Of a DNA stretch of 35,205 nucleotides, positions 1 through 32,931 are shown in pieces. Position 1 is the first letter of the stretch; every line of letters begins with the position of its first letter. The stretch comes from an uncultured Dehalococcoidia bacterium (lineage in GTDB: Bacteria; Chloroflexota; Dehalococcoidia; Dehalococcoidales; UBA1222), in the NCBI GenBank assembly GCA_903844845.1, contig CAIMVG010000003.1, positions 1 to 35,205 of the forward strand. The letters are read 5' to 3'. The translations under genes and the position numbers were made by a program. The notes under the pieces are model-generated. The model saw nothing but the letters and a program-made list of their open reading frames with translations, searched no databases and was not told the DNA's origin.

Positions 1-25
1 GGCGAGGCCTGCCGAGTTGAGGCGG

Positions 26-125
26 TGCGCACAATTAACTTATGTTACCGGCCAGACTGAGCCGCAGTGAAGTTAGCATAAGACTTGATTGTGCGCAGGG
101 GCGGGGTACAGATGCGGCCCTTCGA
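26..125 (+). repeat. Hairpin module copy 1 (TGCGCACAAT stem)
   Basis: Bases 26-35 pair with 88-97 over 10 bp, and an inner stem pairs 39-44 with 77-82. The stem is followed by GGGGCGGGG and then CCCTTCGA (118-125), the same 3' arrangement as the CAGTCG-type modules although the stem sequence is unrelated. Confidence 0.55.
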
Positions 126-150
126 TACATTTGATGGAAAACCAGGCCGA

Positions 151-189
151 GGGACACTCCGGCTTATGCGGCGCTGGACGGAGTGGACC
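151..189 (+). repeat. Class B hairpin with tandem G-A mismatches, copy 1
   Basis: CACTCCG (155-161) pairs with CGGAGTG (179-185). Outside it, GA (153-154) faces GA (186-187), and GG (151-152) pairs with CC (188-189). Tandem GA/GA is a classic sheared-pair RNA motif. The same arrangement recurs at 341-384 with different paired bases. Confidence 0.5.
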
Positions 190-248
190 GAGGGGAGACT
201 GATTATAGATATGCCTGTTGAGCAGAACCTGCGTTTTGGGGGTGCGGA

Positions 249-316
249 TGCCAGTCGGCGCGGCGTCCGTGTTAGAGCGGCGACTGGCATGGGGCGGTAT
301 AAATGGTGCCCTACGA
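249..316 (+). repeat. CAGTCG hairpin module, copy 2
   Basis: TGCCAGTCG (249-257) pairs with CGACTGGCA (281-289). The loop contains GCGGCGTCCG and GAGCGG, as in the 741 copy. A G-rich strand follows and the module ends with CCCTACGA (309-316). GCGTTTTGG precedes it at 231, as it does before the copy at 741. Confidence 0.6.
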
Positions 317-340
317 CACTCGTTTGCGGCAACACAGAAC

Positions 341-384
341 GTGCGACGCTCCGGCGAACATTTAGCGGTGACGGAGCGGAGCAC
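341..384 (+). repeat. Class B hairpin with tandem G-A mismatches, copy 2
   Basis: CGCTCCG (347-353) pairs with CGGAGCG (372-378). GA (345-346) faces GA (379-380), and GTGC (341-344) pairs with GCAC (381-384). Compared with 151-189 the second base pair changes from A-T to G-C, a compensatory change. Confidence 0.5.
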
Positions 385-483
385 GAGGGAACGAGCCAGT
401 TATAGCCAACGCCAACTTATTAGGCATGAACTGGCGAGTGACCGTTTCAACCTCCCGCTTGCCGCAAGGTGATTGGGGGGCGG

Positions 484-513
484 GTAACAGTCCGCCGGTG
501 AGCGGGCTGTTAC
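484..513 (+). repeat. Hairpin GTAACAGTCCG / CGGGCTGTTAC
   Basis: An 11-bp stem (484-494 with 503-513) has one T-G pair (491 with 506), which would be an A-C mismatch on the other strand and so favours a plus-strand RNA. It is preceded by GGGGGGCGG and followed by GGGGG, like the CAGTCG modules. Confidence 0.5.
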
Positions 514-546
514 GGGGGACATACTCAAGACTTTTCAGATGCGGGG

Positions 547-610
547 GCCAGTCGGCGGCCTGTGTGCGGACGACTGGCAGGCGGCGGGGCTATGAATACG
601 TACCCCTCGA
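547..610 (+). repeat. CAGTCG hairpin module, copy 3
   Basis: GCCAGTCG (547-554) pairs with CGACTGGC (571-578). It is followed by GGCGGCGGGG and ends with CCCCTCGA (603-610), which fits the shared module end with one difference. Confidence 0.55.
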
Positions 611-740
611 CAAGGCACTGATGATTAACAGGATAGCGGCTGCAACCCGGCGCTGCCTACCTCCCCTGCCGGGGTGCGCCGCGAAAGAGCGAGCCAGGGC
701 GGAACCCGAAAGAGCGGATAATGCGTTTTGGCGGGGCGGG

Positions 741-807
741 TGCCAGTCGGTGCGGCGTCCGGAGCGGCGACTGGCAGGGGCGGGGACACCAGCCTCGTGC
801 CCTCCGT
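741..807 (+). repeat. CAGTCG hairpin module, copy 4
   Basis: TGCCAGTCG (741-749) pairs with CGACTGGCA (768-776), flanked by GGGGCGGG before and GGGGCGGGG after, and ends with CCCTCCGT (800-807). GCGTTT (723-728) and AAACGC (814-819) could form an outer closing stem. Confidence 0.6.
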
Positions 808-818
808 TGATATAAACG

Positions 819-858
819 CTTTACCCTAGCCACTGCGAAGCAGATCGGCTGGGTAAAG
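819..858 (+). repeat. Bulged hairpin with inner CTGC-GAA-GCAG stem-loop
   Basis: CTTTACCC (819-826) and AGCC (828-831) pair with GGCTGGGTAAAG (847-858), leaving one bulged T at 827. Inside, CTGC and GCAG pair around a GAA loop (833-843). This hairpin lies between two CAGTCG modules. Confidence 0.5.
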
Positions 859-912
859 CCACTATAACCGTAAGAAGCGTTACCCTCGCCGTCAGCATCA
901 TCGAGGGGCGGG

Positions 913-948
913 TTCAGTCGGGCGGACGTGTCAGGGAGCACGACTGAA
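913..948 (+). repeat. CAGTCG hairpin module, copy 5 (covarying stem)
   Basis: TTCAGTCG (913-920) pairs with CGACTGAA (941-948). Relative to the TGCCAGTCG copies the base pairs at the stem foot have changed on both sides. It is flanked by GAGGGGCGGG and CGGGGCGG. Confidence 0.55.
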
Positions 949-995
949 CGGGGCGGAGTGGCCTCTGCGTAACCTCAAGGTTGGGCGGGGGCGAG

Positions 996-1054
996 TGCCA
1001 GTCGACGCGTGTGTGTGGCGACTGGCACGGGGACGGGCACCTCCTGCCCTCCGA
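996..1054 (+). repeat. CAGTCG hairpin module, copy 6
   Basis: TGCCAGTCG (996-1004) pairs with CGACTGGCA (1019-1027). A small second hairpin follows (GGGCA with TGCCC), then CCCTCCGA (1047-1054). A short AACC-TCAA-GGTT hairpin precedes it at 971-982. Confidence 0.6.
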
Positions 1055-1069
1055 AAACGCTTATTCTGG

Positions 1070-10913: not shown

Positions 10914-11897
10914 ATGCTAACACTTGCAGACTATCAGAAACTGGACAAGGACATGATTGTCCAGGCCATCTATGACTGGATCTTCCAGAGCGATTCCGGA
11001 TTCCTTTCGAAACTGGCCGTGCGCGAGGTGAAGGGCAACGGCATCAAGTATGACGTCAAGACCGCCCGCGCCGCCGTATCGTTTCAGGACCCGATGGACG
11101 ACATCCCTGAAACGACCCCGACCTTTGTGCAGCGGAGCGCCGCGCTCTACGTCGCTATCAAGGACACTCTGGTTTCCAAGTTCGCTATCGCTACCAATTC
11201 GACGCAGAACCCCGAGTTCGTGCAGATTAAAAGCGACATCGAGGACTTCACCGCCGCTATCAACAACATCCTCGTCCTCGGGCAGACGACCACGGCGGGC
11301 AGCACAAAGCAGCCCAAGGGGATGCTGAAACTTATCTCGGAACTGGAAAGCGAAGCGACCACCGACCTCGACGCCATCAACAACACCCAGGTTATCGCGA
11401 ACTCCGCCACTTCCGGGGCTCTCACGCTCGACAAGCTGGACGAGCTGATCGACGCCGTGAACGGGGCAAACTTCCTGATGATGTCCAAGATGTCCCGCCG
11501 CAAGCTGAACATCCTCGCCCGCGCCTCCGGCAGCATCCTGAAAGTGGAGCAGGACGGCTTCGGGCGCTTCATCCAGATGTACAACGACCTCCCGGTATAC
11601 ATCAACACGAACATCCCCAACAACATGCCGGACAGCATCGCATCTGTGCTGACAACTTCGACTTATGACCCCTCCACGACACGGGCCGCAGGCAACGACA
11701 ACTCGCCCATCTTCTGCGGGCGCATCGGGGACGATGGGGCTTTCTGCGCCAACCAGGCTATCCCGCTGACGCAGGAACTGGTGGGCACTTCACAGAAGAA
11801 AGACGCGGAAATCCGCCGCGTGAAGTGGTATCACGGCTTCGCCGCTTACGACAAATATTCGCTCGCGGTGCTAACCGGCTGCTGCCCCACGGACTAA
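10914..11897 (+). CDS. Major capsid protein (HK97 fold)
   Basis: A 327-residue protein that forms the icosahedral shell. It follows the scaffold gene, has AAGGAG before the ATG, and shows typical HK97-type features: an N-terminal region with an elongated loop (FQDPMDDIPETTPTF), a spine helix near LDKLDELIDAVNG, then the SKMSRRKLNILAR segment common in phage capsid proteins and the P-domain-like strand with LPVYINTNIPNN. There is no fused protease. High GC and optimal-looking codons suggest strong expression. It is shorter than HK97 gp5, in line with having no delta domain because a separate scaffold exists. Confidence 0.85.
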   Translation: MLTLADYQKLDKDMIVQAIYDWIFQSDSGFLSKLAVREVKGNGIKYDVKTARAAVSFQDPMDDIPETTPTFVQRSAALYVAIKDTLVSKFAIATNSTQNPEFVQIKSDIEDFTAAINNILVLGQTTTAGSTKQPKGMLKLISELESEATTDLDAINNTQVIANSATSGALTLDKLDELIDAVNGANFLMMSKMSRRKLNILARASGSILKVEQDGFGRFIQMYNDLPVYINTNIPNNMPDSIASVLTTSTYDPSTTRAAGNDNSPIFCGRIGDDGAFCANQAIPLTQELVGTSQKKDAEIRRVKWYHGFAAYDKYSLAVLTGCCPTD

Positions 11898-23778: not shown

Positions 23779-26700
23779 CTATTCCTCTTCCTCGTTGTCC
23801 TTCCCCATGCGATATTTAATGTCATAGTTGATAATGTAATCCAGTTCTTCCTCAGTAAAGCCATAGTGTCTCGCCAAGGCCCTGTCGATTTCATCAATGA
23901 TCTTCTTTGAGTGCTTGGGATAAAACTCATCGTACTCTACTTGACCAGTGGCAGCGTAATAGGCTGTTTTTCTTTTTGCATTTTTCTCTAAATCACACAT
24001 GAGGTTTGAACATAATACTTTCAAATTGGCGAGCGTTTGAGTATCCGGTATTTCGAAAGGGAAAGATCCTATGACATGTTTCGTAAAATTATGGCCATCA
24101 CTATAATTTACATAAAACCAATAGAAAAGCGATGAATTCATAACCGATGTTAATGCATCCCTATCCAAACCTTTTCGGCAATAAATATATTTGTCTCCTG
24201 TTGATGAATTAACCTTTTCACCCTTGAAAAAGGACTTGAAGTTGAGGATTTTCCCCCAATACCCAAACCCATATCCGTAATATACGTAATTGCCGTTTTC
24301 TGGTTCTTGAAGGTAATCGGCGATGCTGTTTTTCTTTGACCAAAGCTTTCGCACGATGTCATTCTCAAGGGCGGTCGAAACTTTAAGAACGCTACTACCG
24401 TGTCTAGGCTGCTCATTGACTTGCAGCGTGATACTGTTAAAAAGGAATGGACGAGTTTCAGTGGCGAACTTGATGTAACGAGTTGTGGAGATCACAGGAT
24501 TGCTTCTTCCTTTTCGTCCTAAAACGATGGATACCCTGATATGCTCTAGTCCATCAAATAACTTGCCCGGTCTATCGTCAAAAAAGGAAAGATGACCCAA
24601 ATCTATTTCTCTAAACAACACGTCTTGGAACGGTTCCATACGTGGCGTACAGAAAGCGGATAATTGGATAATCATGCCTATGCGGGAAGTATCGTGCTCC
24701 AAACCCAAAGAACGTTCGATGATATAGGCATAAAGGTTTCCTGCCTCCAAGCAATCTATGCCTTTGATAGAATAAGTATTTCGAATCTTCGCATACTCAA
24801 CATACGGAGGATTCCCAATAATGACATCGAATCCGCCATCCCTCATAATTCCATAAAATTCAACGAACCAATGGAACGGTTGATGGGTTTTCTTAAACTG
24901 CTCAAAATTTCGCGCCCCATAAAAAGCGAACAGGTTTTTATCCAGTTCATTTTGTATTTCCGCCAGCTTTGCTTTCACTTCGGTTTTGGCTTTGTTTATC
25001 TCTAATGCCGAAGTACCAAATCTAGTTTGCGCATCTCTGAAGGCTTTTAGATAGCGATCTGCTGTTTCAATGCGCTTCTCAATCGTAGCCAGCGTGCCAC
25101 CAAGGTCGAGCTGAGTAGCCTTGGCTTTCTTTATTTCATCTTCGCTCGCGTAGCCCACCAACGTATTACCGGCCCGGATATTGAAATCGATATCCGGTAA
25201 CGGTTCAATTTTGTTCGCATCATCCACCTGGGCAACAAGTTTAAGGAAAAGCCTCAGCTTGCATATTTCAACAGCCTCCTCCATGATGTCCACGCCAAAG
25301 AGGTTGTTGACAATGATGCTCTTCAGTACAAAGTACTTTCGATTTGGATGTTGATTTACCCGGGCGAGTTCTTCGGCAAAATCAGGGAATTTCGGACTGG
25401 CCAGTTCCTCCATCTTGTCGAGGCAAATTTCATAAAGCGGCTCAAGAATGTTTAGAGCGGCAAAGAGGAAAGCGCCGCTGCCCACGGTGGGGTCTAACAC
25501 AGTCACTTTGGAGAGGCATTGGAAATAGAAAAACCGTAAGGCGAGGGGGTCTTTTATAGAACTGAGCCAATCTTCGGCGAAACTACGGATGTCCAGATTG
25601 TACGTAATTAGATCATTGATACCAGCTATCTTACCGGCAGCAAAGTCGGTTTTAATTTGCTCATACCGTTTGTGGCGCGCCTGGTACTCACGCTCGGTTT
25701 CGGTAGGCAGGTATTCCTCCTGTTTCACTGCATCATAAACATAGGGATCAACATCTTTCATTGGGAATGGCGTGAGATCTTCAGCTCTCTGGGTGGCTAT
25801 TTTGTCAAAAAGAAAGGGGACAATGGTGTTTTTGCAAATGTAATCGGTGATATCCTCTTTGGTATAATAAGCTCCCATCTGCTTCTGGTTGATGTATTTC
25901 TCAAAGATATAACCCAAGACGTCCGGGTTAATCTCGTCATCTCTCTTTAACGGCCGGTAATCTAGGTGCCAATTATATTTATCAAACAAAGCGAATATCT
26001 GGGCGAATGCTGCGTCGCTGATTATGATTTTCTCGCCGTGAGCCTGTTCTAGCTGGTGGCGCAGAAAGAGACCGCCGTTCAAGTAAGGCACACTGCCTAA
26101 AAGGGTGTTCACCTCGGGTGATCGTTCGGCCTTTTCTTTAGCGAATCCCTCAAAGAATAGCTTTTTCAAAAACGAATTGTAATATTGGTTTGAACCCCGT
26201 TTCTGCGACTCTTTAAGTTTTGTAAGGAGATAATTCTGATTGCCGTTGAGAAATCCCTTCTTCTGAATGAAGTAAATAAACATCAGGCGGTTCAGCATCA
26301 CCGATGTGTACCAGGCCAGTTCTTCCAGATTTTCGATTCCCTTGATTAACTTGCTGAATGAATCATGCTCATCTTTGAACTCGTCGTAAAAGCGCTTGGT
26401 TACTTTCTCAACATCAAGGGCTTTGCTAACCGCGCCGGTAACTTTAGTGATTACTATGCCGCCGTCTTCATCCAGTTCGGAAAAATCGAAGCCTATAGCG
26501 GATAATTTCTGAAGCAGGGAATCACCTGGCTGCCCTTTGCGGTATTCATGTTCCCGGGCAGCTGCGGATTGGCCGACGCCCCGCTTTACCCATTGCCAAA
26601 TCGAGCGAGTTCTGGCTTTATCGACAAAGACAAGAATATGCTCGTGCACCTGGGATTTAATCTGGTTCTCGATTTTACGACGCAAAGCGTAATCCGGTAT

Positions 26701-26898
26701 CCCGCCCTTGGCGGAGCTTACTTCGTAAATGACAAAGCCCCCCTGTTCCGCAAGGGGACTAAACTGGTATTGCTCGACTCCAATATTAAGCACGATAGGC
26801 CGCTGGTGACTAACTCCCCAGTTCAATTCGTTGATAAATAGGCCCTTAAAATCAAAACTCTTGAGAAAAGGACGCATGGTGGTTGTGTTGGCGCTCAT
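23779..26898 (-). CDS. Adenine-N6 DNA methyltransferase, Eco57I/type IIG-like
   Basis: A 1039-residue protein, second gene of a reverse pair. Residues 1-130 form an N-terminal domain with YALRRKIENQI and HILVFVDKARTRSIWQWV that could be a nuclease or a coupling domain. A helical region with NPDVLGYIFEKYI and GAYYTKEDI leads to SAM motif I DPTVGSGAF (469-477), catalytic motif IV NPPY (696-699) and the HWFVEF signature. A recognition/helical C terminus follows, ending in a charged tail. The NPPY motif predicts N6-adenine methylation. The start overlaps the helicase stop by one base (TAATG), so stoichiometry is fixed. It may act as the modification half of a restriction-like system or as a single-chain restriction-modification enzyme. 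Confidence 0.85.
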   Translation of the reverse strand: MSANTTTMRPFLKSFDFKGLFINELNWGVSHQRPIVLNIGVEQYQFSPLAEQGGFVIYEVSSAKGGIPDYALRRKIENQIKSQVHEHILVFVDKARTRSIWQWVKRGVGQSAAAREHEYRKGQPGDSLLQKLSAIGFDFSELDEDGGIVITKVTGAVSKALDVEKVTKRFYDEFKDEHDSFSKLIKGIENLEELAWYTSVMLNRLMFIYFIQKKGFLNGNQNYLLTKLKESQKRGSNQYYNSFLKKLFFEGFAKEKAERSPEVNTLLGSVPYLNGGLFLRHQLEQAHGEKIIISDAAFAQIFALFDKYNWHLDYRPLKRDDEINPDVLGYIFEKYINQKQMGAYYTKEDITDYICKNTIVPFLFDKIATQRAEDLTPFPMKDVDPYVYDAVKQEEYLPTETEREYQARHKRYEQIKTDFAAGKIAGINDLITYNLDIRSFAEDWLSSIKDPLALRFFYFQCLSKVTVLDPTVGSGAFLFAALNILEPLYEICLDKMEELASPKFPDFAEELARVNQHPNRKYFVLKSIIVNNLFGVDIMEEAVEICKLRLFLKLVAQVDDANKIEPLPDIDFNIRAGNTLVGYASEDEIKKAKATQLDLGGTLATIEKRIETADRYLKAFRDAQTRFGTSALEINKAKTEVKAKLAEIQNELDKNLFAFYGARNFEQFKKTHQPFHWFVEFYGIMRDGGFDVIIGNPPYVEYAKIRNTYSIKGIDCLEAGNLYAYIIERSLGLEHDTSRIGMIIQLSAFCTPRMEPFQDVLFREIDLGHLSFFDDRPGKLFDGLEHIRVSIVLGRKGRSNPVISTTRYIKFATETRPFLFNSITLQVNEQPRHGSSVLKVSTALENDIVRKLWSKKNSIADYLQEPENGNYVYYGYGFGYWGKILNFKSFFKGEKVNSSTGDKYIYCRKGLDRDALTSVMNSSLFYWFYVNYSDGHNFTKHVIGSFPFEIPDTQTLANLKVLCSNLMCDLEKNAKRKTAYYAATGQVEYDEFYPKHSKKIIDEIDRALARHYGFTEEELDYIINYDIKYRMGKDNEEEE

Positions 26899-29800
26899 TA
26901 GTCCGTGCCTCCGACTTCAGTTTTGAATAATCCCATTGAACAGATGATACGAGGTTCTTGCGTCTCGATTTCCTCTTCTTTCAGACTTAGGCGGCCCTCT
27001 TTCCTCAAGTCAATCACCATGTTGGCCAGAGATTCATCGGAGGCACCTGTCTTGAGCTGGCGGTTTAGAGCGTCGGTTGCTAGCGAACGTAAAGGATATT
27101 TGTAGATATCGTCGATAGCCCTCATAAGGTCATCTGTTGCCAGTAAGGGCGCATGTTTGCGCATATCATCGAAGTAGCCTTTCAGCCGCTCATAGGAACG
27201 ATACCTGGCCCCCGATGGGCGGCCCAACTGGCCGCCGGTGGCTTTATCCTGTTGAATGATGTTTTCCAAACCTTTGCGTACAAGCTCGTGGTGATTTTCA
27301 TTGCGTTTCTGCGCCGGAGTGGATAGTATGCATTCTGCCGCTTTCAGAATGGCTGTCTGGGACTGCGTAACGCTTTCACCCCGCTTGTTAACCCAAACAA
27401 GCGCATCATTGCCTTCCGCGGTCTTGGAATAGACCAACACCCCTTCGGGAGAATTTGGTGTGGGCGAATGGCCCTTGGTAGCGTACACAACATCGGGCAG
27501 ACTCGATATCTTTTTGGCCAGTTCCGGATCATCTTTGGTAGCGTTATGCCATATCTGGTAAGCATAGGAAGAGAGATCAACTTCGGTATCAGGATCAGCA
27601 TCCAGGATGCCTGATCTCTCAGTGTACAAATGTCTGAGAGTCTGGGCGTTGGCATCATCTTCAAAGAACAACTCATCCGAACCGACGACTTCACTATTCT
27701 CCTGTAACCGCTGTTTTACGCGAGCGCGTAGACGGATGATTTTCTCTAATCCTTCTGCAGGAAGGAAAGAATAGCAATAAATTTGGGCAGCCTTCTGTCC
27801 GATACGGTCGATACGCCCAACACGTTGAATCAGGCGTACCAAGGCCCAAGGGAGATCGTAATTGATGACGATGGCGCAATCCTGAAGGTTTTGACCTTCG
27901 CTCAGAACGTCCGTAGAGATAAGAACACGTAACTCTTCTTCTGGTTTTATTGTCTTTTCATTACTGACAGGGCTGAATCGCCATGCGAGTTCGGTGGGAT
28001 TTTCTGATTCGCCCGTAACGCCCGCCAGCTTGGCTACGCCGCGTTTTTTGAGTTCATTCGTTAGGTAGTTGGCAGTGTCCGCAAATTGAGTGAATAGAAG
28101 TATCTTACCCTGGGGGTGAGTTTTGGTAATGAGGTCACTCAAAGCGGTGAGCTTGGTATCCTGTGCGGAATCCCACGAGCCAAACTCCTGCAATAAAGCG
28201 ATTAGAGATTGCGAGTCGGCCAGAAGTGTTTTTTTGAGTGAAGGGATAAAGAAGGCTGGGGGCAACCATTTAAATCTCTTGTGTTTTGATTTCGAATACT
28301 GCTCGTATATTTTGCTTGCTGTGTCGAGATACCAGGCGGTGGTGTACGGGTGAGCGCCATCGGAAGGTATTGCATTGCCTTTATCGTTTGTATCTTCTTC
28401 TTCAAAAGCAAAACCGGTTTGTGTAGCGCCTGTTATATCAACATCTTCATCGTCGATGGTTTCCATTAGGAGTTCGGCGCCTTGAATGCCGATTGGTAAT
28501 GGAAGGCTATTTTCGATGGCGTATGAATAGATATAATTGCGCAGGATATGACGGTCAACAGACAGTAAAAACGATTGGCCGCTACTTTCCAGTCTTTTGA
28601 ATAGATTAGTACGACAGAAGCCTATTAAACGGCCGCCGGCTTTACATAGGTTGTCCATCTGTTTGGCTTCTTCGGGTGACGCTAAAGACAGGGCATCGCC
28701 AGTTAGGTAGCTGCCAAGGCCGTAGCGTGGCAAAGACATATGATTAATTATATTAACCACTTTGTCCGAGTATAAACGTGCATAATGATCATTGGGGTCA
28801 TTCTCATCAAATTTGAAAACCGCTTTCACTGGCAACCGGTCGGGAAAATAGAAACGACGGCCATCTTCGAAAGCCAGATACTTGCGCCCATTGGTGTTAT
28901 CTGTGAAGGCGTAGTTATCTTTAATGAAACTGCGGGTGCGGCGAACCATATAGAGACGCATCAAGTCGCGCCAATCGTCCGCATATTCACTTTTCTCAAA
29001 CGCAGCCAGGGAACGAATAAGTGCCTGGTGTCTTCTGATAAATTCAACTTCGCCGATTTCTTTGATATAACGCTCCGGGCGGATACCCAAATCCATGTCT
29101 GGCGGTACGAATAACTGAAGCTGGGCACCCAGATCAAGGTAGCTCTTGTTATATGGCGTGGCAGAAAGCAAAATACACTTGCTTTCGTTCCTCGTAATAT
29201 AGTCTTGGATGATTTTGTATCTTTTGCCCTCTTTATTTCTTAAGTTTTGACTTTCATCAATGATTACAATGCGGTATCTGCGTTCATCCGGAAGTTCATT
29301 CATCACGACACTGACTGGGAGAACCTTGGCCCGGAGTTGGTAACGATGGACGTAGCCAGTCCACATTCTGACAAGGTTTTTGGGACATATTATTAACGTC
29401 TCGAGATTCTGGTCGTCTTCCAGAAGTTTGGCGGTTGCACAAGCCATCAATGTCTTGCCAAGGCCGACAACGTCGCCAATAAGGACCCCGCCGCGTTTGT
29501 TGATATGATGAGCGGCGATCTTTACCGCATTCATCTGGAATGTAAGCAGCCTACCTTGAAAGATAGCAGGCAATTTGAATTCGTCCAAACCCGTACGAGC
29601 TTCCTGCGCCAGATGGTAGGCCATTTTTAGATACACATAATATGGAAGCAGTGGTTCAGGGCGAGCCCAGCTTTCCTCGATAATTTTGATAAGCTCTTCC
29701 GAGATATCAACGCACCATTTATCATCCCAACGGTCATTAAACCATTTCCCAAGTTTGACGCATGAATCCTGTTCTAAAACGTCAACGTTAAGTTCCCCTT

Positions 29801-30311
29801 GATGCGCTAAACCGGCTAAAGTGAGGTTGCTGCTGCCGAGGTATCCTGTGACCGGATTGTTGAAATCCTGGCGGTACATCAAGTAAAGTTTGGCATGTAA
29901 TGGATGCCTGAGATAAAGTTTGACTACAAGTTTTTTCTCTTTTATCTGTCGGGCGAGACCCTGCAACGATGCTTCATCGACGTTGTTCGGCGCGCCCATC
30001 ATCAGCTGCCTTCTAAAACTCTCGGCGAGTTGCCGTTGAAGCCTCTTGAGAGTTGGCGCATCTATCGGATTGTCTGAATGAGTAATGCTTAAAGACTCTG
30101 CGAGTTCTTCGTTTGCCAATTTCTGCATCCCGACCAGCAAACGACAGCAATTAGATTCGCCGCCTACCCAACCATCAATAGATCCCTGAAGCTTGCTCCA
30201 ACCGCGTAAATTGAAAAAGCCGACGCAAAAGTCGGCTCTCTCAGATGTACCCAGCGTTTGTTTAAGCGCCGGCAATAGACTTTGTTCGATATTGTCGAAA
30301 ATCCTCGGCAT
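26898..30311 (-). CDS. PLD-nuclease/SNF2-type helicase fusion
   Basis: An 1137-residue protein. Residues 1 to about 190 are a phospholipase D-type nuclease with one HKD motif: H139-A-K141, then GSSN (159-162) in a spacing typical of PLD nucleases that dimerise. The helicase core follows: Walker A GDVVGLGKT (279-287), DESQ box (352-355), SATP (384-387), then the second RecA domain with LLFTQFADTANYL, DVLSEGQNLQ and QRVGRIDRIGQ, as in RapA/SNF2 proteins. It would translocate on duplex DNA and cut when its partner finds unmodified sites. This is inferred from architecture and pairing. The order is helicase first, methyltransferase second, from a strong promoter. Confidence 0.85.
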   Translation of the reverse strand: MPRIFDNIEQSLLPALKQTLGTSERADFCVGFFNLRGWSKLQGSIDGWVGGESNCCRLLVGMQKLANEELAESLSITHSDNPIDAPTLKRLQRQLAESFRRQLMMGAPNNVDEASLQGLARQIKEKKLVVKLYLRHPLHAKLYLMYRQDFNNPVTGYLGSSNLTLAGLAHQGELNVDVLEQDSCVKLGKWFNDRWDDKWCVDISEELIKIIEESWARPEPLLPYYVYLKMAYHLAQEARTGLDEFKLPAIFQGRLLTFQMNAVKIAAHHINKRGGVLIGDVVGLGKTLMACATAKLLEDDQNLETLIICPKNLVRMWTGYVHRYQLRAKVLPVSVVMNELPDERRYRIVIIDESQNLRNKEGKRYKIIQDYITRNESKCILLSATPYNKSYLDLGAQLQLFVPPDMDLGIRPERYIKEIGEVEFIRRHQALIRSLAAFEKSEYADDWRDLMRLYMVRRTRSFIKDNYAFTDNTNGRKYLAFEDGRRFYFPDRLPVKAVFKFDENDPNDHYARLYSDKVVNIINHMSLPRYGLGSYLTGDALSLASPEEAKQMDNLCKAGGRLIGFCRTNLFKRLESSGQSFLLSVDRHILRNYIYSYAIENSLPLPIGIQGAELLMETIDDEDVDITGATQTGFAFEEEDTNDKGNAIPSDGAHPYTTAWYLDTASKIYEQYSKSKHKRFKWLPPAFFIPSLKKTLLADSQSLIALLQEFGSWDSAQDTKLTALSDLITKTHPQGKILLFTQFADTANYLTNELKKRGVAKLAGVTGESENPTELAWRFSPVSNEKTIKPEEELRVLISTDVLSEGQNLQDCAIVINYDLPWALVRLIQRVGRIDRIGQKAAQIYCYSFLPAEGLEKIIRLRARVKQRLQENSEVVGSDELFFEDDANAQTLRHLYTERSGILDADPDTEVDLSSYAYQIWHNATKDDPELAKKISSLPDVVYATKGHSPTPNSPEGVLVYSKTAEGNDALVWVNKRGESVTQSQTAILKAAECILSTPAQKRNENHHELVRKGLENIIQQDKATGGQLGRPSGARYRSYERLKGYFDDMRKHAPLLATDDLMRAIDDIYKYPLRSLATDALNRQLKTGASDESLANMVIDLRKEGRLSLKEEEIETQEPRIICSMGLFKTEVGGTD

Positions 30312-31686: not shown

Positions 31687-31839
31687 TTGCTGTTTGCGCT
31701 TGCCTGCGACGAGACCTACGCTGGGGTGGATAACCGCAACTGGTGGCTGAAGGCAACGACGACGGATGTGGAAAAGCTGGATGCTATATTACATAAAGTG
31801 GGGGTCGGGCTCGGCACCCGACCCCCACTTTCTATTTGA
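31687..31839 (+). pseudogene. Remnant of a second endolysin 3' end
   Basis: An open frame of about 50 codons with no start matches the end of the cysteine peptidase gene at 20988-21761. CDETYAGVDNRNWWLKATTT corresponds to CDEAFAVVDNRNRWLKSSTL, followed by DVEKLDAIL against DVEKLDGYL. DNA is also alike (for example TGCGACGAG, GATGTGGA). The frame runs on through the terminator hairpin and stops at 31837-31839. It looks like the 3' end of a related phage's endolysin left where two phages recombined, or one end of a duplication that flanked the accessory block. Confidence 0.75.
31796..31832. terminator. Strong bidirectional terminator
   Basis: A perfect 15-bp stem, AAAGTGGGGGTCGGG with CCCGACCCCCACTTT, has a 7-base loop. 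The A run on one side and T run on the other allow it to stop transcription from both directions: the accessory/lysis side and the integrase gene, whose stop codon lies at its edge. Confidence 0.85.
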
Positions 31840-32791
31840 GGTGCATGCGATCCACCGGGCTGTTATGTTTGTAAGTCTCCTCGATGAGGTTAGGTTTTAA
31901 ACCCCGGAGATAAGTCTGAGTCGTCTTAAGATCGGTATGCCCCATGAGTCGCTGGAGGGTAAAGACGTTGACCCCGCTATCCACCATGTTGTCAGCGAAG
32001 GTATGCCGGAAAGTATGGGGGGAGCATCGTACACCCTGGATATTTGCCTTTCTCTTGAGGCGTTTGATGATTTCCTGTATTCCGCGAGCCTGTAAGGGCT
32101 TCTTTTCCTCGGTCAACCATAAGACATCTTCGGTGCTTTTGCGAAATAAAAGATAGCGCAGGATGGCGCGGCGGCTTTGCTGACCTATACCGACTAACCT
32201 TTCCTTGGCGCCTTTGCCAAAAACCTTGATGGTGCCGGCTTCCATATTTATACTTGAGATATTCATGCTGACCATCTCGGCAAGCCTGACACCGCTGTCA
32301 ATAAACACTAGGACGATGGCCGTGTTTCTGGCTGCACAATAGTCGGTTCCCGAAGTGCACAGTTCTAAAAGCTCTTTGAGGTGCGTAGGGGTGAATGGCT
32401 GGATAATTCTCTTGGGTACTTTGGGTGGGCGTTCCCCGGACATAGGATTTTCATGGATAACACCCTCGTGCTTTAGCCAGTTAAGCCATACCTTGACGTT
32501 GCTGAAAGAATCTTTTACAGAAATGGGGGAAACGGATTCTCTTTTCTTTTGAAGGTACAGCCGAACATGGTTAAGGGTTATGTCTTTGGGCGCATCTATC
32601 CCGGTGCTTTGGCAAAAGAGGATAAACGGTTTGATCTTTTGCTGATAGTCAACTATAGACCTGGGCGAAAGCCCATCCACCTGCTTGGCGAGGATGAAGG
32701 TCTGAAGACAGCCGTTTAGAGTGTCACTGTTTAGAGCATTTAGGCGCTCAAGGCCAGATACGGCCCATGCCTGTGAGTTTTGATGATTCAT
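31832..32791 (-). CDS. int: Tyrosine integrase of the prophage
   Basis: A 319-residue site-specific recombinase. An N-terminal SAM-like DNA-binding domain (about 25-110) is followed by the catalytic domain. All catalytic residues are visible: R169 in SGVRLAEM, K193 in FGKGAK, H259-T-F-R262 in SPHTFRHTF, H285 in LMGHTD and nucleophile Y294 in TQTYLRG. Its start lies 52 bases from the 3' end of tRNA-Pro, the usual place for an integrase that uses a tRNA end as attB. No clear ribosome site precedes the ATG at 32791, so translation may be weak. The similarity is of XerC/D type, but the location argues for a phage integrase. Confidence 0.9.
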   Translation of the reverse strand: MNHQNSQAWAVSGLERLNALNSDTLNGCLQTFILAKQVDGLSPRSIVDYQQKIKPFILFCQSTGIDAPKDITLNHVRLYLQKKRESVSPISVKDSFSNVKVWLNWLKHEGVIHENPMSGERPPKVPKRIIQPFTPTHLKELLELCTSGTDYCAARNTAIVLVFIDSGVRLAEMVSMNISSINMEAGTIKVFGKGAKERLVGIGQQSRRAILRYLLFRKSTEDVLWLTEEKKPLQARGIQEIIKRLKRKANIQGVRCSPHTFRHTFADNMVDSGVNVFTLQRLMGHTDLKTTQTYLRGLKPNLIEETYKHNSPVDRMHLK

Positions 32792-32843
32792 GTGCGCTAG
32801 AGAGCCGCACTACCACTGCCGAACAGCCGTTTTGTGTGTAAAA

Positions 32844-32870
32844 TCGGGGTGAGAGGATTTGAACCTCCGA
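32844..32870. other. Predicted right attachment site (tRNA 3' end)
   Basis: The T arm and 3' end of tRNA-Pro next to the integrase is the expected recombination core. The matching left copy would lie beyond the left edge of this window, so the site is inferred rather than seen twice. Confidence 0.4.
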
Positions 32871-32917
32871 CCACCTGAACCCCATTCAGGTGCGCTACCA
32901 GGCTGCGCTACACCCCG
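32844..32917 (-). tRNA. tRNA-Pro(GGG)
   Basis: A 74-nt cloverleaf on the minus strand. The acceptor stem CGGGGTG pairs with CACCCCG, the D stem is GCGC/GCGC, the anticodon stem CCTGA/TCAGG encloses the loop ATGGGGT with anticodon GGG, and the T arm GGAGG-TTCAAAT-CCTCT is followed by discriminator A. CCA is not encoded. It is probably the attachment target of the neighbouring integrase. Because the tRNA is complete, the phage must supply a matching 3' end. Confidence 0.95.
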
Positions 32918-32931
32918 ATGACAACGTTAAT

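Follow-up and report, generated by a model that had tools for sequence, protein, structure and literature searches.

Gene content and hairpins of the locus

The window, the whole stretch of 35,205 nucleotides analysed here (contig C3), carries a prophage with an array of hairpins at its left end. The phage genes include a terminase small subunit (TerS, 1132-1569, + strand, phrog_309), a terminase large subunit (TerL, 1562-2845, + strand, phrog_2), a major head protein (10914-11897, + strand, phrog_212) and a tyrosine integrase (31832-32791, - strand). The integrase adjoins a tRNA-Pro (32843-32918), the only tRNA of the window and located about 32 kb from the array. These genes supported the phage context proposed in an earlier, sequence-only reading of this DNA. 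Also next to the prophage integrase, at 23779-30311, are genes for type IIG restriction-methylation and for a PLD/SNF2 helicase.

All hairpins of the array are given on the + strand. The CAGTCG/CGACTG stem is exact in five hairpins: unit 2 (248-290), unit 4 (547-578), unit 5 (741-776), unit 6 (912-949, GTTCAGTCG / CGACTGAAC) and unit 7 (995-1028). The unit 3 hairpin at 484-513 (GTAACAGTCCGC / GCGGGCTGTTAC) is a sixth, variant member. The first hairpin (26-97, TGCGCACAAT) has a stem unlike CAGTCG (TGCGCACAATTAA / TTGATTGTGCGCA, 13 bp with an inner stem), which is identical in the genomic copy C28; it shares the G-rich / CCCTTCGA tail after the stem, here the unit 1 tail hairpin (98-125). The claim of at least six CAGTCG-type modules in the sequence-only reading was confirmed with a correction: five are exact and one is a variant (484-513), and the module listed at 26 is of a different kind. 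The module spacing is 80-250 nt.

Downstream of most CAGTCG hairpins comes a small G-rich/C-rich hairpin ending in CCCTNCG. The recurring end noticed earlier was found at five sites: the CCCTNCGA-type tail lies at 118-125, 309-316, 604-610, 800-806 and 1047-1053, with CCCTCCG at the last two, and forms the 3' arm of this second hairpin downstream of the stem. The tail hairpins comprise GGGGC / GCCCT ending in CCCTACGA (291-316), GGGG-c-TATG(AATA)CGTA-CCCC (586-610), one ending in CCCTCCG (777-806) and GGGCA / TGCCC, also ending in CCCTCCG (1035-1053).

Further hairpins are interspersed. The P-type hairpin CACTCCG / CGGAGTG (155-185) and the 347-378 stem are distinguished by an A-U to G-C change affecting both sides; the latter belongs to the P-type hairpin GTGCG..CGCTCCG / CGGAGCG..GCAC (340-385), whose stems are unchanged in all four genomic copies. 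A Q-type hairpin, GCCAGTT / AACTGGC (395-435), has relatives upstream in the adjoining contig. The unit 3 hairpin is preceded by a weak C-rich / G-rich stem with many G-U pairs (451-480), and unit 5 by a long hairpin GCGGC..GCCGC (636-682). A hairpin GCTTTACCC / GGGTAAAGC (818-859) and a stem CCCTCG / CGAGGG (883-907) lie before unit 6. Outside the array, at 1062-1099, is a dispersed REP-like hairpin with no strand assigned (ATTCCCGAGT / GCTCGGGAAT); its core ATTCCCGAGT..GCTCGGGAATGAC has many further matches at other sites of the genome.

Window positions 1-1058 contain six perfect Watson-Crick stems of at least 8 bp (span <70). Dinucleotide shuffles (n=200) yielded 0.76 +/- 0.87 such stems with a maximum of 4, and any other 1-kb stretch of the window contains 0-1. 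This excess established the hairpin array as real.

Extent and coding potential

The left boundary of the array in the window is the assembly edge of contig C3. Positions 15635-15775 of L012 (contig C9) are identical (100%) to window positions 1-141, and C9 then continues upstream with about 500 nt of similar sequence, including two hairpins that resemble 395-435. The exact overlap and this extension bring the array to about 1.5 kb. Exact overlaps of about 141 bp link C9 to C3 and C22 to C23 at their ends. A single left arm may continue into several right arms, which would mean several prophage copies or a mixed population.

In the C9 arm, small opposite-strand genes lie upstream of the array, followed by genes for a RusA nuclease, a DnaD-like loader and a Gp3-like protein. 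Two of the small genes are directly upstream of the array (L012:14650-15115 and its equivalent in L009), with high conservation between the contigs C9 and C28. A single viral-contig scan gave no relative of the first small opposite-strand protein. The upstream part of the C28 copy (L009:6540-6680) has short ATTGTGCGTAAT-like direct repeats, iteron-like and absent from C9.

The array copies are set apart by indels of 1, 2 and 4 nt and have no open frame in common. The array is therefore non-coding, as the earlier reading had supposed when it saw no convincing gene; a coding hypothesis was ruled out by the non-triplet indels and by frames that are closed in some copies. Neither a recognisable sigma-70 promoter at the upstream end of the array nor a U-tailed terminator 3' of unit 7 was found.

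Genomic copies and neighbouring genes

The host genome (1.9 Mb, 29 contigs) has four copies of the array that are 89-92% identical. Compared with the copy of the window on C3, the identity is 92% for C28, 89% for C23 and 89% for C22; the C22 copy lacks unit 7 in the alignment. The copies on C3 and C22 lie in prophages that encode a terminase, a head protein and an integrase; the major head proteins of the two are 98.8% identical. Their TerS proteins share only 49% identity, compared with 89% for the arrays. The C28 element encodes a phage-type integrase and an AAA_25 ATPase, with a type I restriction gene after the array; no terminase was detected in its assembled part. On C23, AbiE and type I restriction genes follow the array before host genes begin, and no terminase was detectable beside this copy.

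In C22, C28 and C23, the genes 3' of the array are on the opposite strand and point towards it. Defence genes occupy this position in three of the four copies (L011:1677-7910, L009:8296-11445 and L010:742-10305): a type III restriction system and a RhuM-family gene in C22, a type I HsdR in C28, and AbiE with type I restriction in C23. The type III restriction cassette of C22 covers 6 kb between the array and terS. The recurrence of defence genes in three copies suggests a cargo hotspot. The copies are mosaic at window positions 658-672, where C3 and C23 have one version and C28 and C22 another. This sequence pattern suggests that the copies have recombined.

Covariation and strand bias

The CAGTCG stems of paralogous modules have two-sided changes in five of ten pairs. 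The module covariation score was 0.383, compared with 0.115 in shuffled controls, and was reached in none of 500 shuffles; the signal was lost when partners were slid by 1-3 columns. The statement that stems stay paired while their bases change was borne out between modules. Among the four genomic copies, pairing-preserving changes were not above column-shuffled controls, and the evidence for covariation is therefore that of the paralogous modules. Covariation of this kind is equally expected of a DNA inverted-repeat array.

The strands differ. Against column shuffles, the z-score for the consensus fold of the four copies was -6.5 for the + strand compared with -3.4 for the - strand, with single windows down to -4.1 on the + strand. 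Single-sequence folds of 200 nt had modest z-scores. In single-sequence folds of the + strand, paired columns were less variable than unpaired columns for all four references (p 5e-5 to 4e-3); on the - strand this was the case for only one of the four. Variable columns made up 9% of stems and 32% of linkers, with the structure derived from the same alignment. In the 4-bp stem at 591-602, within the tail hairpin 586-610, three one-sided changes in C22 preserve pairing on the + strand only. Fold, column variability and the 591-602 stem moderately favour a + strand RNA.

Searches for homologues

Searches of about 740 Chloroflexota genomes and of viral contigs, phages and plasmids detected no homologue of the array. 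DNA similarity searches of phages, plasmids, the family of the host and 400 genomes from the phylum gave only the copies of this genome; weak matches in five other genomes resembled chance matches on reading. Covariance models were built for the module (R1) and for window positions 340-514 (R2), and each was run against 393 genomes of the class. R1, which was built without unit 6, recovered that unit weakly (E 0.01). R1 had a single weak match in the class. R2 found no array and had two matches, one within a long open frame (L103) and one weak, a short intergenic hairpin (L104). Hairpin patterns occurred in viral contigs in chance numbers only, and the best match (L112) was a lone hairpin rather than an array. 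The search of Chloroflexota and phage sequences proposed in the sequence-only reading, made with covariance models in the class and with hairpin patterns and proteins in viral contigs, yielded no array outside this genome. Module matches within the genome were confined to the four arrays.

Neighbouring proteins did not lead to further arrays. Around TerL relatives, both in viral contigs and elsewhere in the order, the examined stretches had no array; in the named genome collection, a Dehalococcoidia MAG has the sole TerL relative. Scans with the small opposite-strand protein, the DnaD-like loader and the head protein gave zero array-bearing relatives.

Rfam searches at gathering and permissive thresholds had chance matches only. 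The GOLLD covariance model did not match even at E up to 5-10, and the ROOL model did not match either. By model, the array is therefore not GOLLD or ROOL, in agreement with the earlier impression that it resembled neither. A type III toxin-antitoxin RNA or CRISPR-repeat mimic was dropped because no ToxN-like gene was seen among the scanned neighbours, the spacing is 80-250 nt and the module is confined to the four arrays.

Interpretation of the array

GOLLD RNAs are often close to tRNA genes, which is typical and not strictly defining, and are characterised by increased expression during lysis. GOLLD is a large, structured RNA encoded by phages and prophages, with unknown function, and ROOL is a large phage- or prophage-encoded RNA without a known partner protein (PMC12286853). 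The array is like GOLLD and ROOL in size and phage context (PMC12286853). It differs from GOLLD by the missing Rfam match and the missing tRNA island next to it, and it consists of serial related hairpins, whereas GOLLD has a conserved 3' domain and a variable 5' domain. Compared with ROOL, the array is about twice as long, has no Rfam match and no tRNA neighbour, and is limited to a single lineage. By analogy, it is best read as a counterpart of GOLLD and ROOL that is a member of neither.

On balance, the array is probably a new, narrowly distributed structured non-coding RNA of about 1.5 kb, or else a series of hairpin units made as RNA. It would be encoded on the + strand, between replication and packaging genes, in a family of temperate phages from one Dehalococcoidales lineage, and would also be present in related islands with defence genes. 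The stem excess, the module covariation, the + strand fold, the column variability, the 591-602 stem, the non-coding character, the missing Rfam match and the array identity of 89% against 49% for TerS count for an RNA. The lack of a recognisable sigma-70 promoter or U-tailed terminator, homologues in one genome only, the modest z-scores of single-sequence folds, the missing pairing excess among copies and the absence of unit 7 in C22 count against it. The kilobase-scale new phage RNA of the sequence-only reading is in part supported, by scale, prophage context, serial units, the + strand fold and stems kept in four diverged copies; the pairing-preserving changes among copies, not exceeding shuffles, did not support it. 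The alternative given in that reading, a smaller RNA arrayed in several copies, matches the anatomy about as closely as a single large RNA does.

Such an RNA would be transcribed, probably when the phage is induced or in its lytic phase. It may act in trans, since three of the four copies are no longer directly linked to terS. The repeated units would be multivalent: they could bind several copies of one protein, or pack against each other as in GOLLD and ROOL RNAs. More tentatively, the array may represent a large modular RNA of about 1.5 kb that forms a new class, common to Dehalococcoidales temperate phages and satellite-like defence islands, with hairpin units that are multivalent in trans and anti-phage genes that are swapped alongside.

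A cis-acting DNA element is a serious rival to the RNA reading. An origin or single-strand initiation hairpins beside the DnaD-like loader and RusA, common to a replicating island, is a rather unlikely explanation in our judgement, although the C9 arm has replication genes a short distance upstream and the C28 element encodes an AAA_25 ATPase, a family that includes RepA-type helicases. The short ATTGTGCGTAAT-like direct repeats upstream of the C28 copy fit an origin too, but are missing from C9, and the paralogue covariation would result from DNA hairpins just as well. The better consensus fold on one strand speaks against this element, and 1.5 kb of conserved hairpins is unusual for origins of dsDNA phages. 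A cos or pac site read by the terminase, and copied by satellites for packaging by a helper phage, has a still lower probability. The window array is directly 5' of terS, and its presence in prophages as well as in elements without detectable terminase is the arrangement expected of satellites that borrow a packaging site. However, a cos or pac site would be expected to co-vary with the specificity of its terminase, and the array does not: it holds 89% identity while TerS falls to 49%. This divergence, with two copies lacking a detectable terminase, makes a TerS recognition site unlikely. Moreover, phages whose TerL is 79% and TerS 37% identical show no such array within 6 kb 5' of terS, phages with 78-79% identical TerL have none in the stretches available, and the type III restriction cassette parts array and terS in C22. 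Known cos and pac sites are far shorter than 1.5 kb, and covarying hairpins of this extent, kept despite TerS divergence, set the array apart from them.

Defence cassettes at a fixed site in related prophages and integrase-bearing islands recall the P2/P4 hotspots and PICIs (compare PMC9122126). What stays fixed beside the cassettes here is a structured non-coding array, and the host is a Chloroflexota lineage. A rearranging non-coding repeat spacer that serves cargo insertion or recombination and the exchange of defence genes, with no RNA function, would account for the convergent defence genes in three of the four copies, the mosaic around 658-672 and the REP-like element at the 3' end of the array. 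It leaves the compensated stems, the conservation of stems against variable linkers (9% vs 32%) and the strand bias unexplained, and exchange needs no structure; we consider it improbable. A long, structured leader at the 5' end of the late operon, such as an RNA antiterminator in cis of the HK022 put kind, agrees with the position of the window array immediately 5' of terS on the same strand. It cannot be a general role because the next downstream genes in C22, C28 and C23 are on the opposite strand, and it is very improbable.

If the array is transcribed as one molecule, few known structured phage RNAs would be longer. If the RNA reading is true, such RNAs can consist of repeated hairpin units and can also reside in defence islands without a terminase. 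Giant phage RNAs would then be separated from tRNA islands, and the array would provide a second, independent test system for their role.
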